45,642 nt of DNA from Clostridia bacterium. GTDB lineage: Bacteria; Bacillota; DSM-521; Neomoorellales; SLTJ01. Numbering within the stretch: position 1 is the first letter of the stretch; each line of letters starts with the position of its first letter. Below are positions 17,432-23,178 of this stretch, in pieces. The notes below the pieces were generated by a model. The model searched no databases, was not told the DNA's origin, and was given only the letters and a program-made list of their open reading frames with translations. The stretch lies in assembly GCA_024653205.1 (NCBI GenBank), contig JANLFO010000019.1, positions 1 to 45,642 on the forward strand, written 5' to 3'. The position numbers and the translations under genes are program-made.

Positions 17432-18916
17432 CTACTCGTACGGCCGCAAGGCAGGGAAAAGGATAACGTCACGAATGGAAGGAGAATTGGTCAGCAGCAT
17501 GACCAGGCGATCCACTCCCAGGCCCATACCGCCCGCCGGAGGCATTCCGTACTCCAGGGCCAGGACGAAATCGGCATCCATCATCTGCGCTTCCTCGTCT
17601 CCGCCCGCCCGTTCCCGTGCCTGCGCCAGCAGTCGCTCCCTCTGGTCAACGGGATCGTTGAGCTCGGTGAAGGCGTTGACCAGCTCTCGGCCGGCAACAA
17701 AGAGCTCGAACCGGTAAACCAGGTCCGGCGCCTCCGCCTTGCGTTTGGCCAGGGGAGATATTTCCAGAGGATAGTCCACCAGGAAGGTGGGCTGGATGAG
17801 CCGGGGCTGCACCAGCTCCTCCAGCAGGGCATCGATTATCTTTCCCGCCGAGGCCGCCGGGTTCACCTCCACCCCCCTGGCTCGGGCGGCGGCCAAAGCT
17901 TCTTCCCGCGAAGGCAGGCCGTTCCAGCTTATCCCGGTGAAGCGGCGCAGGGCCTCAAGCACGCTCAGCCGCGGCCAGGGCGGAGTGAGGTCGATTTCCC
18001 AGTCTCCGTAGGAGAATCTGAGCTTCCCCAAGACGACTTCTGCCACGTAAGCCAGCATCTCTTCGGTAAGACGCATCATGTCTTCGTAGTCGGCGTAGGC
18101 CTGATAGGCCTCCAACATGGTAAACTCCGGATTGTGTCGGGTAGAAATGCCCTCGTTGCGGAAGACCCGGCCCAACTCGTAAACCCTTTCCAACCCTCCC
18201 ACCAGGAGGCGCTTGAGCGGCAACTCCAGAGCGATCCGGAGGTAAAGGTCCAGGTCCAGAGCGTTATGGTGGGTCACAAAAGGACGGGCGGCAGCACCGG
18301 CGGCCACCGGCGCCATGGTGGGAGTCTCCACCTCCAGGAATCCCCGCTGGTCCAGGAAGGCACGCAGGGCCTTGATCGCGCGGGTGCGTCGGTAGAAGGT
18401 TTCCCGAACCGGCGGATTCATGATCAGGTCCAGGTAGCGCTGGCGGTAACGGAGCTCCACGTCCCGCAGACCGTGCCACTTTTCGGGAAGAGGCCGGAGC
18501 GACTTGCAAAGGAGTTCCAGCCCCTGAACCTCGACACTGATTTCGCCCTGGCGGGTGCGGAAAACCGTGCCCCTCACTCCCAGGATGTCCCCCAGGTCCA
18601 GGAGCCTGAACAGGGCGTAGACCTCCTCGCCCACCAGATCCTGGCGCACGTAGATCTGGATTCGACCCGAGCGGTCCTGCAGGTCCCCGAAGCTGGCCTT
18701 CCCGTGCACCCGCTTGGCCAGGAGACGCCCGGCCACCTGCACCTCTTCCCCGCAGAACTCTTCGAAGCGCTCCTTGATCTCCTGGGCCAGAGCGGTCTGC
18801 TCGAAACGCCGACCGAAGGGATCAATCCCCCGTTCCCGCAGGTCCACCAACTTCTGATAGCGCACTCGAACCAGGTCCCCGAGATCTTCTCCTAGCCCGT
18901 ATGAGTCCTGAGACAA
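17432..18916 (-). CDS. lysS: Lysyl-tRNA synthetase, class II
   Basis: LysRS charges tRNA-Lys. The 494-residue protein has the N-terminal OB-fold anticodon domain ([20 protein letters not shown], about 55-80) and the class II catalytic domain. Motif 2 is seen in [26 protein letters not shown] and motif 3 in [19 protein letters not shown] near the C-terminus. Length and the SIRDVILFP ending fit bacterial LysS. It lies 62 bases downstream of greA and shares its promoter, matching the greA-lysS arrangement of many Clostridia. Confidence 0.96.
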
Positions 18917-18978: not shown

Positions 18979-19455
18979 CTAACCGGATATACCCAGGATC
19001 TCGTAATACTGAACCCCGCCCGGCGCCTTGACCTCTACTATCGTGCCCACCTTCTGGCCCAGTAAGGCCCTACCTACGGGGGAGAGGTTAGAAATGCGGT
19101 TTTGGGAAGGATCGGCCTCCACTGACCCCACGATTTCGTACTCGCTTTCCTCGCCGGTCTCCAGGTGCCGCACGCGCACCCGGGAACCCAAGGTAACGGC
19201 CTCGGTGGAGATGTCCTGCTGATCTATGAGCTTTGCCCGCCGGAGCGTCTTCTCCAGGGTTATTATCCGACCCTCAATGAAGGCCTGCTCGTTCTTTGCC
19301 TCTTCGTACTCGGAATTTTCGCTGATGTCGCCGAACTCGATTGCCTGCTTTATTCTTTCGGCCACCTGCTGGCGCCGGACGGTCCGCAGGTACTCCAGTT
19401 CTTCCTCCAGGCGCTTCAGGCCCTGCTTGGTAAGGATTACCTCCTGGTCGGCCAA
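18979..19455 (-). CDS. greA: Transcription elongation factor GreA
   Basis: GreA rescues backtracked RNA polymerase by stimulating transcript cleavage. The frame is open upstream as far as 19674, but that covers the promoter (19510-19538). The TTG at 19455, with GGAGG 8 bases upstream, gives [20 protein letters not shown] and exactly 158 residues, the family length. The N-terminal coiled coil carries the acidic tip ([17 protein letters not shown], with the catalytic Asp/Glu pair). The C-terminal FKBP-like domain ends with [22 protein letters not shown]. It is the first gene of the greA-lysS transcript. Confidence 0.95.
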
Positions 19456-19509
19456 TTGGTTCGCCTCCGCTCTCCGCCACATAGTCTTCGGGACCGAAGC
19501 TTGGGGTGT

Positions 19510-19538
19510 ATTATAAGAGGAGTCTTCTCCCCTGTCAA
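19510..19538 (-). promoter_or_regulatory. Sigma-A promoter of greA-lysS
   Basis: A consensus TTGACA (19538-19533), a 17-base spacer and TATAAT (19515-19510). Its position rules out any greA start upstream of about 19503 and supports the TTG start at 19455. Confidence 0.88.
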
Positions 19539-19721
19539 CCCGTTCCTGCGACGAATTGTCACCAATTTCCACGGGCAGCCCTGGTTTGCCGGGCAACGAA
19601 GACGTGCGCCGCGCCGAACACGGGCCGCGGCGGCCGAACCCCATCGGCCTGGGAGCGCGTTCTCCCGCGGCCACCCCACCGGAGGGTGCGAAGCCCCGAG
19701 CCGCTCCCGATCTTGCCGAGC

Positions 19722-20813
19722 CTAACCCAAACCACCCGCCACCCGCCTTCGCTGCCGCGCCCTTTCCCGCACGGCGGCTATGTCTTCGGCAGTAAGGGGG
19801 CGCTCGAAACTGCGGAAACCCGCCAGTTCAAACCCGTGGCGCCTGGCCAGGCGGCTGATCTCTTCCACCTGTTCCAGGGTGATCTCTCTTCCCAGGGTGA
19901 AGCTCTCCCAGCGCCGCTCCAGGGCCAGGATCATGGTTTCGGCCATGCAGGCCAGGGCCACCCCGGGCGGATAACCGAAGTCAAAGTGGAAATTCACCTC
20001 ACCCGGAACGCGTACCACTCCCCCCTCAATCACCAGAACGTCGTCCCGCAGCTCGGCCACCTTCCGAGACACGTCTCGCGGACGGGCCACGTCACAGACT
20101 ACCGCGCCGGGTTTCAGGTCCGCGGGCTGGATCACCGTGTCCACCGCCGAGGTTACGCTGATCACGATATCCGCCGTGGGCAGCACCCGGTGAGGATCGT
20201 TGGACAGTTCCGCCGCCACGCCGCTTTCGCGAAGAATAGTATGGGCCAGACGCTCCAGTTTATCCACCTGGCGCGCAACCAGCGTGAGGCGGGCCGCCTC
20301 CCGGGCCATCACCCGCGCGCACACCGCACCTATGGACCCCGTGGCCCCTACCACCACCACGTGAGAGCGGGAGACTTCCAGCCCCATCAAGCGGGCGGCC
20401 TCCCGGGTTCCCTCCAGGGCCGTGGCCACGGTATAGCTGTTGCCGGTGGTTACCGGGATGTTCAGATTCCGGGCCACGGTGATGCCGGCATCCCCCACCA
20501 CCGAGGTCATGGCTCCCAACCCCAATACCTTAGCGCCCAGCCTCTCGGCCAGACGACCGGCCTGGATAATGCGGTTGAGCACGTAATCCGTTGGCAGGGA
20601 AAGCATCTGGCGAGAGGTAAGAGGGCAGGCCACGAACCAGCCTTCGATCTGGTTGTAAGGCGACCGCACCCCGGTTATGTGGGCGGTGTTGACCGGCGGC
20701 AGCCAGCAGAGGAATCTTTCTACCAGACGGGCCGGCAACCGGGCGGCGATGCGGTACTTGCGGGCCACGTCCCTAACGTCTAAGGGATGAATCATAAAGG
20801 CAAACGTATCCAT
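19722..20813 (-). CDS. NAD(P)-binding oxidoreductase resembling cyanobacterial acyl-ACP reductase (AAR)
   Basis: A 363-residue soluble protein. ATG 20813 is used because GGGGGTGGGG precedes it and the promoter (20839-20867) excludes longer versions. From memory it aligns along its length with cyanobacterial AAR, which reduces fatty acyl-ACP to aldehyde. VTTGNSYT (121-128) matches [18 protein letters not shown] (152-162) is the Rossmann motif, and [13 protein letters not shown] and ADIVISV follow. [15 protein letters not shown] (285-299) keeps the active-site cysteine (Cys289), and [16 protein letters not shown] matches the C-terminal signature. Databases may label it shikimate or quinate dehydrogenase. 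The true substrate is unknown; thioester reduction is inference. Confidence 0.7.
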
Positions 20814-20867: not shown

Positions 20868-20933
20868 GCGCACCTGGTCAGAAGCTGCCGGACTTTATCC
20901 GCGCTTACACTCTCGACTGCCCGGCGAGGCCCG

Positions 20934-21488
20934 TTACTCTGACCAGCACTGTAGGTAATACGCCCAAATCTCGGGCCTGGCCAATAGCCGGCTAAGTTCC
21001 CGGACCAATGGATCTAGATAATCCCGGTCCAGGTTATCGCGTTGACGAACTATTATATGGCGCACGTCTTCCAAATCGCGAGGGCGCTCGGAGATTATCT
21101 TATGAACAACCAGGTCTTCGGCGGTGCATACCCTGAACTGCTGTTTTCCCAACTTTACGATCGTGGCCCTGGCGAGGGCATGTTCTTCATAGGGCAAGCG
21201 GGCAAAGACAACATCTACCCGCACTCCGTCTCTAGTAGTCAAAGGTAGGACGTTGGTTTGCTTTATGAACCCAAGGGGGTGTCTCACCAGGAGTTGAAAA
21301 CTGCTCTTAAGCCTCTCAACTAATGCAGGAATCTCGGATTCTCTACAAAGAATTGTAACGTCGAGATCCCGAGTCAGTCTGGGCTGGCCCCAGATTAGGT
21401 TGGCAATGCCTCCGATGAACATGTAAGGAATGCGCTCCTGCTCGAAAAAGGCGGTCACTTGCTTGAGGCTACGCTCGAGAGCGGTCAT
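20934..21488 (-). CDS. Pol-beta-type nucleotidyltransferase, possible toxin of a two-gene module
   Basis: A 184-residue protein with the minimal nucleotidyltransferase motif: GG at 27-28 (FIGGIANLIWG), then RDLDVTIL with the two metal-binding aspartates, and a third Asp in VRVDVVFA. This places it in the AbiEii/MNT-like group, whose members modify tRNA or proteins and often act as toxins. ATG 21488 has GGAGG 5 bases upstream and lies inside the 3' end of the 91-residue gene (20-base overlap). The pair sits between dus and an unrelated oxidoreductase, in what looks like a small accessory insertion. Enzyme class is well supported; toxin role is inference. Confidence 0.75.
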   Translation of the reverse strand: MTALERSLKQVTAFFEQERIPYMFIGGIANLIWGQPRLTRDLDVTILCRESEIPALVERLKSSFQLLVRHPLGFIKQTNVLPLTTRDGVRVDVVFARLPYEEHALARATIVKLGKQQFRVCTAEDLVVHKIISERPRDLEDVRHIIVRQRDNLDRDYLDPLVRELSRLLARPEIWAYYLQCWSE

Positions 21489-21744
21489 GCAAGCCTCCTA
21501 CCGTTAGGCGGGCCAGGTACTGCCTGGCACTTTGTAGGCGCCGGATTTTGTCCGCATCAACCTTGGCTTGTGCCCAATTGGGATTGGCTTCCCGCGCCAA
21601 CTCCCAGGCCTCGGCAAACCAGCGCAGGGTACGGGAGAGTTCTTCGGAGGCCCTGGGTCCGGTTAACCTCCTTGAACCAGTAATCTCCCAAGCATTGAAC
21701 CGTTCCCATTGCCGGCGTCTGTGAAGGAGCTGGTCGCGCTCCAA
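21469..21744 (-). CDS. Small protein paired with the nucleotidyltransferase, possible antitoxin
   Basis: A 91-residue, charged, largely helical protein from a TTG start (MERDQLLHRRRQWERFNAWE). It has no helix-turn-helix that I recognise. The QWERFNAWE segment and a central helix (SEELSRTLRWFAEAWELARE) are the clearest features. Its stop overlaps the nucleotidyltransferase start by 20 bases, so the two are co-translated with this gene first, the usual order of antitoxin and toxin. GGGG of GAGGGGC just before the TTG is a poor, very close SD, so the start is uncertain. The function is not known to me. Confidence 0.6.
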   Translation of the reverse strand: MERDQLLHRRRQWERFNAWEITGSRRLTGPRASEELSRTLRWFAEAWELAREANPNWAQAKVDADKIRRLQSARQYLARLTVGGLHDRSRA

Positions 21745-22119: not shown

Positions 22120-23178
22120 CTATCCTTTATTCTTTTTCTCTAGGTTCTCAATGCGATTCAGCAGTTGTTTCAGGAAGGACCAACTGAATGAGGACGGTTC
22201 GCTTCCAGAAGACATGTCGTCGTTGCCGCCGACGTAACCGCTCAGGAGTTGCCGCACGCCGGCGGCAGTCTCCAGGCGGCAGACTTCCCGGCGCAGGCGC
22301 GCCGCCCCGGGCAGGCCCTTCAGGTAATAGGCCAGGTGCTTGCGCATTTTCACCACCCCGCGCCGCTCGCCATAGTAGGCCACGGCCAGATCCAGGTGGC
22401 GAAGGGCCACCGCGAGACGCTCCCTCACTGAGGGCGGGGCCGGTTCAGGGTCTCCCGCCAGCACCGCCCGGCAGGCCGCAAAAAGCCAGGGGTTGCCGAG
22501 ACTCCCCCGGGCAAGCATCACCGCGTCACAGCCGGTGAGGTCCACCATGCGACGGGCGTCCTCGGGCCGATAGACGTCGCCGTTGCCGATGACCGGAATA
22601 CACAGCGCCTCTTTTACCCGGGCGATAACCCCCCAATCGGCCTCGCCCCCGTAGTACTCCTCGCGGAAGCGGCCGTGCACGGTGACCGCCGCCGCTCCGG
22701 CTTCGGCCACCGCCCGGGCCAGGTCAACGGCCAGCTCTTCCCCCACCCGCCACCCTCTCCGCATCTTGACCGTTACCGGTACCGGCACCGCCCGGACTAC
22801 GGCCCGCACTATGGCCGCGGCGCGCGGGATATCAAGCAGCAGGGCCGCGCCCGCACCGTTTGCCACCACCTTGCGCATGGGGCAGCCCATGTTAATGTCA
22901 ATAAGCGGCGCTCCCCTTTCCACCGCGATCATGGCTGCGCCGGCCATTTCGTCCGGTTCGGCTCCGAAAAGCTGTACTCCTGCCCGGGGTTCACCGGCCA
23001 GATCCAGCATCCGGAGGGTTCGGGTGCTGCCGGAAACCAGGCCCCGGGCGCTGATCATCTCCGTAAACACTAAAGCCGCCCCGAATTCCGCGGCCAGCAG
23101 ACGATAGGGCTTATCGCTGAACCCGGCCATGGGCGCGGCCACCACCGGATGGGGTAAGAGCAAGCTTCCCAGCCGCAC
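22120..23178 (-). CDS. dus: tRNA-dihydrouridine synthase (DusB type)
   Basis: Dus enzymes reduce uridines in tRNA to dihydrouridine with FMN. The 352-residue protein has the TIM-barrel signatures VVAAPMAGFSDKPYR (13-27), DINMGCPMRKVVANGAGAAL with the catalytic cysteine, TVKMRRGW, ITVHGRFREEYYGG-type AVTVHGRFREEYYGGEADW, IGNGDVYRPEDA and DAVMLARGSLGNPWLF. The C-terminal recognition domain is followed by an unusual Ser-rich linker and a helix (FLKQLLNRIENLEKKNKG), which is longer than typical DusB. It begins 14 bases past the coaX stop; B. subtilis dusB lies in the comparable folate/coaX region. Confidence 0.92.
   Translation of the reverse strand: MRLGSLLLPHPVVAAPMAGFSDKPYRLLAAEFGAALVFTEMISARGLVSGSTRTLRMLDLAGEPRAGVQLFGAEPDEMAGAAMIAVERGAPLIDINMGCPMRKVVANGAGAALLLDIPRAAAIVRAVVRAVPVPVTVKMRRGWRVGEELAVDLARAVAEAGAAAVTVHGRFREEYYGGEADWGVIARVKEALCIPVIGNGDVYRPEDARRMVDLTGCDAVMLARGSLGNPWLFAACRAVLAGDPEPAPPSVRERLAVALRHLDLAVAYYGERRGVVKMRKHLAYYLKGLPGAARLRREVCRLETAAGVRQLLSGYVGGNDDMSSGSEPSSFSWSFLKQLLNRIENLEKKNKG

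Follow-up and report, generated by a model that had tools for sequence, protein, structure and literature searches.

A 363-residue open reading frame on the reverse strand of the window, i.e. the whole stretch of 45,642 nucleotides analysed here, was recognised from homology and from its modelled fold as a standalone AAR-like thioester reductase (AARL; positions 19722 to 20813), and together with a separately encoded aminotransferase it probably constitutes a split PigE/TamH-like pair, leading from an acyl thioester through an aldehyde to an amine. Most discussion of the AAR (acyl-ACP reductase) family concerns its role as an alkane enzyme of cyanobacteria or as a domain in natural-product pathways. 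AARL is a gene in a housekeeping setting whose copies share 50-70% identity in many families of a phylum which appears to take in acetogenic and other strictly anaerobic lineages. The enzyme class proposed for it in a first-pass annotation is probably right, the biological role suggested there found no support, and of greater interest is how AARL relates, as a split or a fused form, to an aminotransferase.

The window corresponds to contig C19 of a 2.46 Mb genome that is 98.8% complete (G000, here the own genome). The boundaries of AARL were confirmed exactly, with an ATG start, and GTG at 20873 provides an alternative start. On the same strand, greA lies downstream (18979 to 19674; Pfam GreA_GreB and phylum-wide synteny), although the N-terminal extension of the open reading frame as listed is doubtful and the real start is probably further downstream, followed by lysS (17432 to 18916), identified by synteny, while dusB is found upstream (22120 to 23178; Pfam Dus and phylum-wide synteny). 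The order dusB-AARL-greA-lysS is conserved where neighbourhoods were read, often in a wider context of coaX, birA and panCD upstream and ctsR-mcsAB-clpC downstream; the same-family contig set shows 84% protein identity. Deriving a function for AARL from dusB, greA and lysS was considered and set aside as uninformative, these being general housekeeping genes. Between dusB and AARL (20934 to 21744), a nucleotidyltransferase open reading frame (DUF6036/AbiEii-like) and a 91-residue open reading frame with no Pfam match were observed; since dusB directly adjoins AARL in the closest relative (L005), this segment has the appearance of a small cassette inserted there, perhaps of a toxin-antitoxin-like kind.

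Searches of PDB sequences with phmmer detected PigE (4PPM, E 8e-38) and Synechococcus elongatus AAR (SeAAR; 6JZQ, E 1e-23), so that the likeness of AARL to both, as judged from these scores, is far beyond chance, and homology to cyanobacterial AAR, as claimed in the first-pass annotation, is borne out. Against the NCBIfam models, AARL scored 217.8 bits for PigE (NF053554, cut-off 850), where only the reductase half was matched, and 113.2 bits for AAR (TIGR04058, equivalog cut-off 449.7); as both scores fall below their cut-offs, AARL is placed outside both equivalogs, and on this sequence evidence it is nearer to the reductase half of PigE than to AAR. An AlphaFold (AF2) model built from a 39-sequence alignment of loci has a mean pLDDT of 92 and a pTM of 0.90. 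When this model was searched with Foldseek, AAR structures were found on top (6JZY, 6JZU and 6JZQ; TM 0.74-0.80, E 1e-24) and the carmabin TAD domain second (TM 0.73-0.74), the predicted model thus having the AAR fold over its whole length. The chain of 363 residues corresponds to the AAR part only and carries no aminotransferase domain.

A reading of AARL as a shikimate/quinate or amino-acid dehydrogenase would follow from database labels, as Pfam Shikimate_DH (PF01488) matches at 47.8 bits, above its cut-off of 24.3, and COG5322 carries the label of a predicted amino acid dehydrogenase (PMC10829540). The Pfam match, however, is confined to the Rossmann part (residues 141-257), and the TM-scores of the model to shikimate dehydrogenases (0.35-0.48) and leucine dehydrogenase (~0.35) are far from those to AAR, so that a whole-length AroE fold is not found and the dehydrogenase identity, set aside in view of the fold and the partial match, is left with hardly any probability. 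It had been anticipated that automatic pipelines may call the protein a shikimate dehydrogenase, and Pfam does so. The profile searches and structure prediction that had been proposed as checks gave a divided answer: the Shikimate_DH profile scored above its cut-off and the AAR-like fold was recovered, whereas the AAR profile stayed below its own and equivalog status was not reached.

The sequence features described in the first-pass annotation could mostly be located. The TTGNxxT segment, conserved in the family, is TTGNSYT at residues 122-128 (20430 to 20450, reverse strand, as for all features here), and the GATGxIG motif is GATGSIG at residues 156-162 (20328 to 20348), aligned on SeAAR 162-GATGDIG-168 (PMC7089970). 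Cys289, encoded by TGC at 19947 to 19949 within ACMAE, had been matched to the AAR nucleophile, and the alignment indeed puts it on C294 of SeAAR and C296 of PigE; alignment and conservation therefore mark it as the predicted nucleophile. In the crystal structure of SeAAR, C294 carries the acyl group (PMC7089970). The C-terminal signature, given earlier as GRxxITxxxxEqI, is present by alignment to SeAAR at residues 308-319 (19857 to 19892) and includes R309, but its 12 residues are one fewer than written. The SeAAR residues contacting the NADPH phosphate (R189, R193 and R314) correspond to R181, K185 and R309 in AARL, preserving a basic triad. SeAAR Tyr247, in the acyl tunnel, is replaced by Arg244, and 144 of 145 intact relatives likewise have an arginine there, a steady difference in the acyl-tunnel region. 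Cys289 and the three loop glycines are kept in 145 of the 161 standalone copies read, and the phosphate-pocket arginines are mostly kept in the same 145.

Cysteine-thioester chemistry is strongly supported by these residue correspondences, and from homology to enzymes with solved mechanisms a course of reaction can be proposed. As a member of the AAR/PigE-N superfamily, AARL would reduce acyl thioesters at the expense of NADPH: Cys289 would accept the acyl group from ACP, CoA or some other carrier; NADPH would dock at GATGSIG, where R181, K185 and R309 hold its 2'-phosphate, and deliver a hydride, and an aldehyde would be released. The separately encoded class III aminotransferase would then most likely take this aldehyde to a primary amine, a step that we infer from the comparative evidence below, and the two proteins would together be a split version of PigE, TamH, KecF and the Thermincola and Thermaerobacter fusions.

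A homologue of AARL at E ≤1e-8 is present in 192 of 299 genomes across the phylum, many of them 50-70% identical over the whole length, so that the gene is not peculiar to a single Firmicute. Its wide presence and the conserved gene order argue for vertical inheritance and point to a core gene of this largely anaerobic phylum. Sixteen of the 161 copies have lost Cys289 and/or the nucleotide loop and yet remain open reading frames, most of them being full-length and, wherever flanking genes were examined, keeping the usual gene order. Such copies (L042, L063-L067, L069-L073, L077 and L109-L111) show Cys289 replaced by Ser, Trp, Ala, Asp, Glu or Gly, or an altered loop. Separately, matches at L032, L077, L108, L162 and L163 each show a single TAA or TGA within the reading frame or close to it.

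A second form of the enzyme, a protein of 870-1030 residues in which a class III aminotransferase is followed by an AAR domain, was detected in 41 of the 299 genomes, and the tree groups these fusions in one clade (support 100/100). Thirty-three of the 41 show no standalone AARL and eight have one; in seven of the eight, Cys289 or the glycine loop is gone (Trp in G032, G116 and G149; Ser with GATVSIG in G129; a broken loop in G164; Asp in G177; Gly in G226). The eighth, G202, is atypical, keeping Cys and the three glycines but lacking Arg244 and all but one of the three phosphate residues. Among fusion-free genomes, a comparison that takes in relatives outside the 299, 144 of 153 have an intact AARL (Fisher p 1.8e-7 against fusion genomes, or 2.6e-9 if G202 is classed as decayed). 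In the tree, decayed copies of fusion lineages stand beside intact sisters in G129/G053 (99/96), G164/G096 (100/99), the f14 group with G178/G250/G296 (98/93) and G177/G031 (92/84). Fusion and intact standalone AARL are thus nearly mutually exclusive, with decay in at least four lineages. This pattern is most naturally explained if the function of the standalone protein has passed to the fusion.

Nine of the 16 decayed copies sit in genomes free of the fusion, where they fall in two further groups in the tree and where six of the nine genomes retain the aminotransferase, which counts against the proposed pair. The presence of decayed copies in fusion-free genomes and their persistence as mostly full-length, syntenic frames could suggest that AARL is non-catalytic or regulatory and that most lineages retain the catalytic residues by descent. 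We consider this improbable, since the great majority of copies retain the cysteine and the loop and in most cases the phosphate arginines, and fusion genomes with a decayed copy have an intact AAR domain at another locus.

If the fusion replaces standalone AARL, genomes with an intact AARL should possess a separate aminotransferase. Using a profile of the aminotransferase part of the fusion, such a protein was found at E ≤1e-105 in 110 of 135 intact-AARL genomes against 2 of 106 AAR-free genomes (p 7e-41), and by family in 46 of 54 against 1 of 39 (p 5e-17); owing to common descent these counts do not represent independent events, phylogeny being only partly corrected for. At E ≤1e-115, it occurs in 2 of 41 fusion genomes and in 100 of 135 intact-AARL genomes. 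The own-genome class III aminotransferase, identified by this profile, lies outside the window (contig C10, 649 to 2028, reverse strand); it scores 519 bits for the other half of PigE and 412 bits for putrescine aminotransferase in NCBIfam, and its best PDB match is PigE (5e-111). In most genomes, the own genome among them, the two genes lie at distant sites; in G096 the aminotransferase is directly upstream of AARL, and in G026, G072, G104, G110 and G138 it is about 6-10 kb away. Since the fusion, the shared distribution and, more rarely, adjacency agree, the aminotransferase is taken as the partner of AARL, although its substrate might be a different aldehyde, as would be the case for a putrescine aminotransferase.

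On contig C10 of the own genome, the aminotransferase belongs to a run of genes on one strand (L189, 649 to 6738), in which it is preceded by an LPG_synthase_TM flippase-like protein, a radical SAM protein, a weak TrmB-like open reading frame and a second LPG_synthase_TM protein. A radical SAM gene near the aminotransferase was seen in the Moorella-like genomes G000, G002, G004, G006 and G012, with LPG_synthase_TM in G000 and G002; these neighbours are no more than a hint of membrane lipids. The radical SAM gene was considered as a Tes-like lipid synthase and rejected, the PDB search at 1e-6 giving only SkfB and PqqE and no Tes. In 20 neighbourhoods, no conserved partner of the aminotransferase was found beyond this Moorella-like arrangement.

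The aldehyde may instead have another fate, such as conversion to an alcohol, incorporation into a lipid as an ether or vinyl ether, or return to the acid via aldehyde oxidoreductases, with the link to the aminotransferase reflecting shared ancestry. The catalytic residues and fold of AARL support aldehyde formation only, 25 of the 135 intact-AARL genomes have no strong aminotransferase match (E ≤1e-105), and the Moorella-like neighbourhoods hint at lipids. We regard such a fate as unlikely in view of the near-exclusivity of fusion and intact standalone AARL, the family-level co-occurrence described above and the two routes that were looked for in the own genome. ADO (PF11266) was not found there, a control with S. 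elongatus being detected, so that the AAR-ADO alkane pathway was rejected and an alkane route without ADO is unlikely. DUF2229 matches occur only in open reading frames of 335 and 468 residues, with no single long PlsA-like protein, which is weak, negative evidence against a PlsA-type plasmalogen route; moreover, the formation of ether bonds in Bacillota is ascribed to PlsA/Ger, which use esters (PMC13274423). The aldehydes for alkane-like products and for plasmalogens that had been suggested earlier thus found no support, while the AAR-like fold, the nucleotide loop and the cysteine stand, and the comparative evidence points from aldehyde to amine.

If the AARL/aminotransferase pair does produce an amine, a core metabolite would have been missed under generic names such as shikimate dehydrogenase and putrescine aminotransferase. 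Tentatively, and with less confidence than we place in the pair itself, the pair may belong to the core genome of the phylum and make an undescribed class of alkylamine, possibly a lipid or a signal, with horizontally spread fusions having displaced the pair several times. The split-versus-fused pattern enables a direct genetic and metabolomic test. In the part of the literature covered, no paper describing the standalone form was found.

Compared with known systems, cyanobacterial AAR (TIGR04058; 6JZQ, 6JZU, 6JZY and 6JZZ) shares with AARL the whole-length fold, the catalytic Cys, GATGxIG, TTGNxxT and the basic phosphate-binding residues. It differs in showing only ~25% identity in structural alignment, in a model score of 113 bits for AARL against a cut-off of 450, in having Tyr247 where AARL has Arg, and in that AARL is a core syntenic gene in an anaerobe-rich phylum, in a genome without ADO. 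Similarly, the TAD domain of carmabin (9E4S, 9E4U and 9E50) has the same fold, but is 20-21% identical and part of an NRPS protein; the literature covered yielded no paper on it.

PigE, of the prodigiosin pathway (NF053554, 4PPM), carries out thioester reduction followed by transamination of the aldehyde (PMC8341465); TamH reduces acyl-ACP and then transaminates (PMC9594044), and the same two steps are proposed for KecF (PMC6498172). PigE is the best sequence match in the libraries tried, its Cys296 equals Cys289, and the own genome encodes a match to its other half as a separate protein; AARL, on the other hand, is unfused, lies outside any prodigiosin-like cluster, scores 218 against 850 bits and has Arg244 where PigE has Leu. 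The fusions (Tfer_2018 of Thermincola ferriacetica, Thermaerobacter, PP_2782, KecF and PtTamH) contain a homologous AAR domain with the Cys, Arg244 and the loop, 34-40% identical to AARL in the fusions of the phylum itself, and an aminotransferase homologous to the standalone one of the own genome, although joined in one chain. In the Thermincola and Thermaerobacter fusions the aminotransferase accepts aliphatic aldehydes, activity being reported for the aminotransferase half only (PMC10829540). Nearly all fusions of the phylum have Asn at position 181 and a non-basic residue at 309, in contrast to R181, K185 and R309 of AARL, and are on this ground predicted to use NADH.
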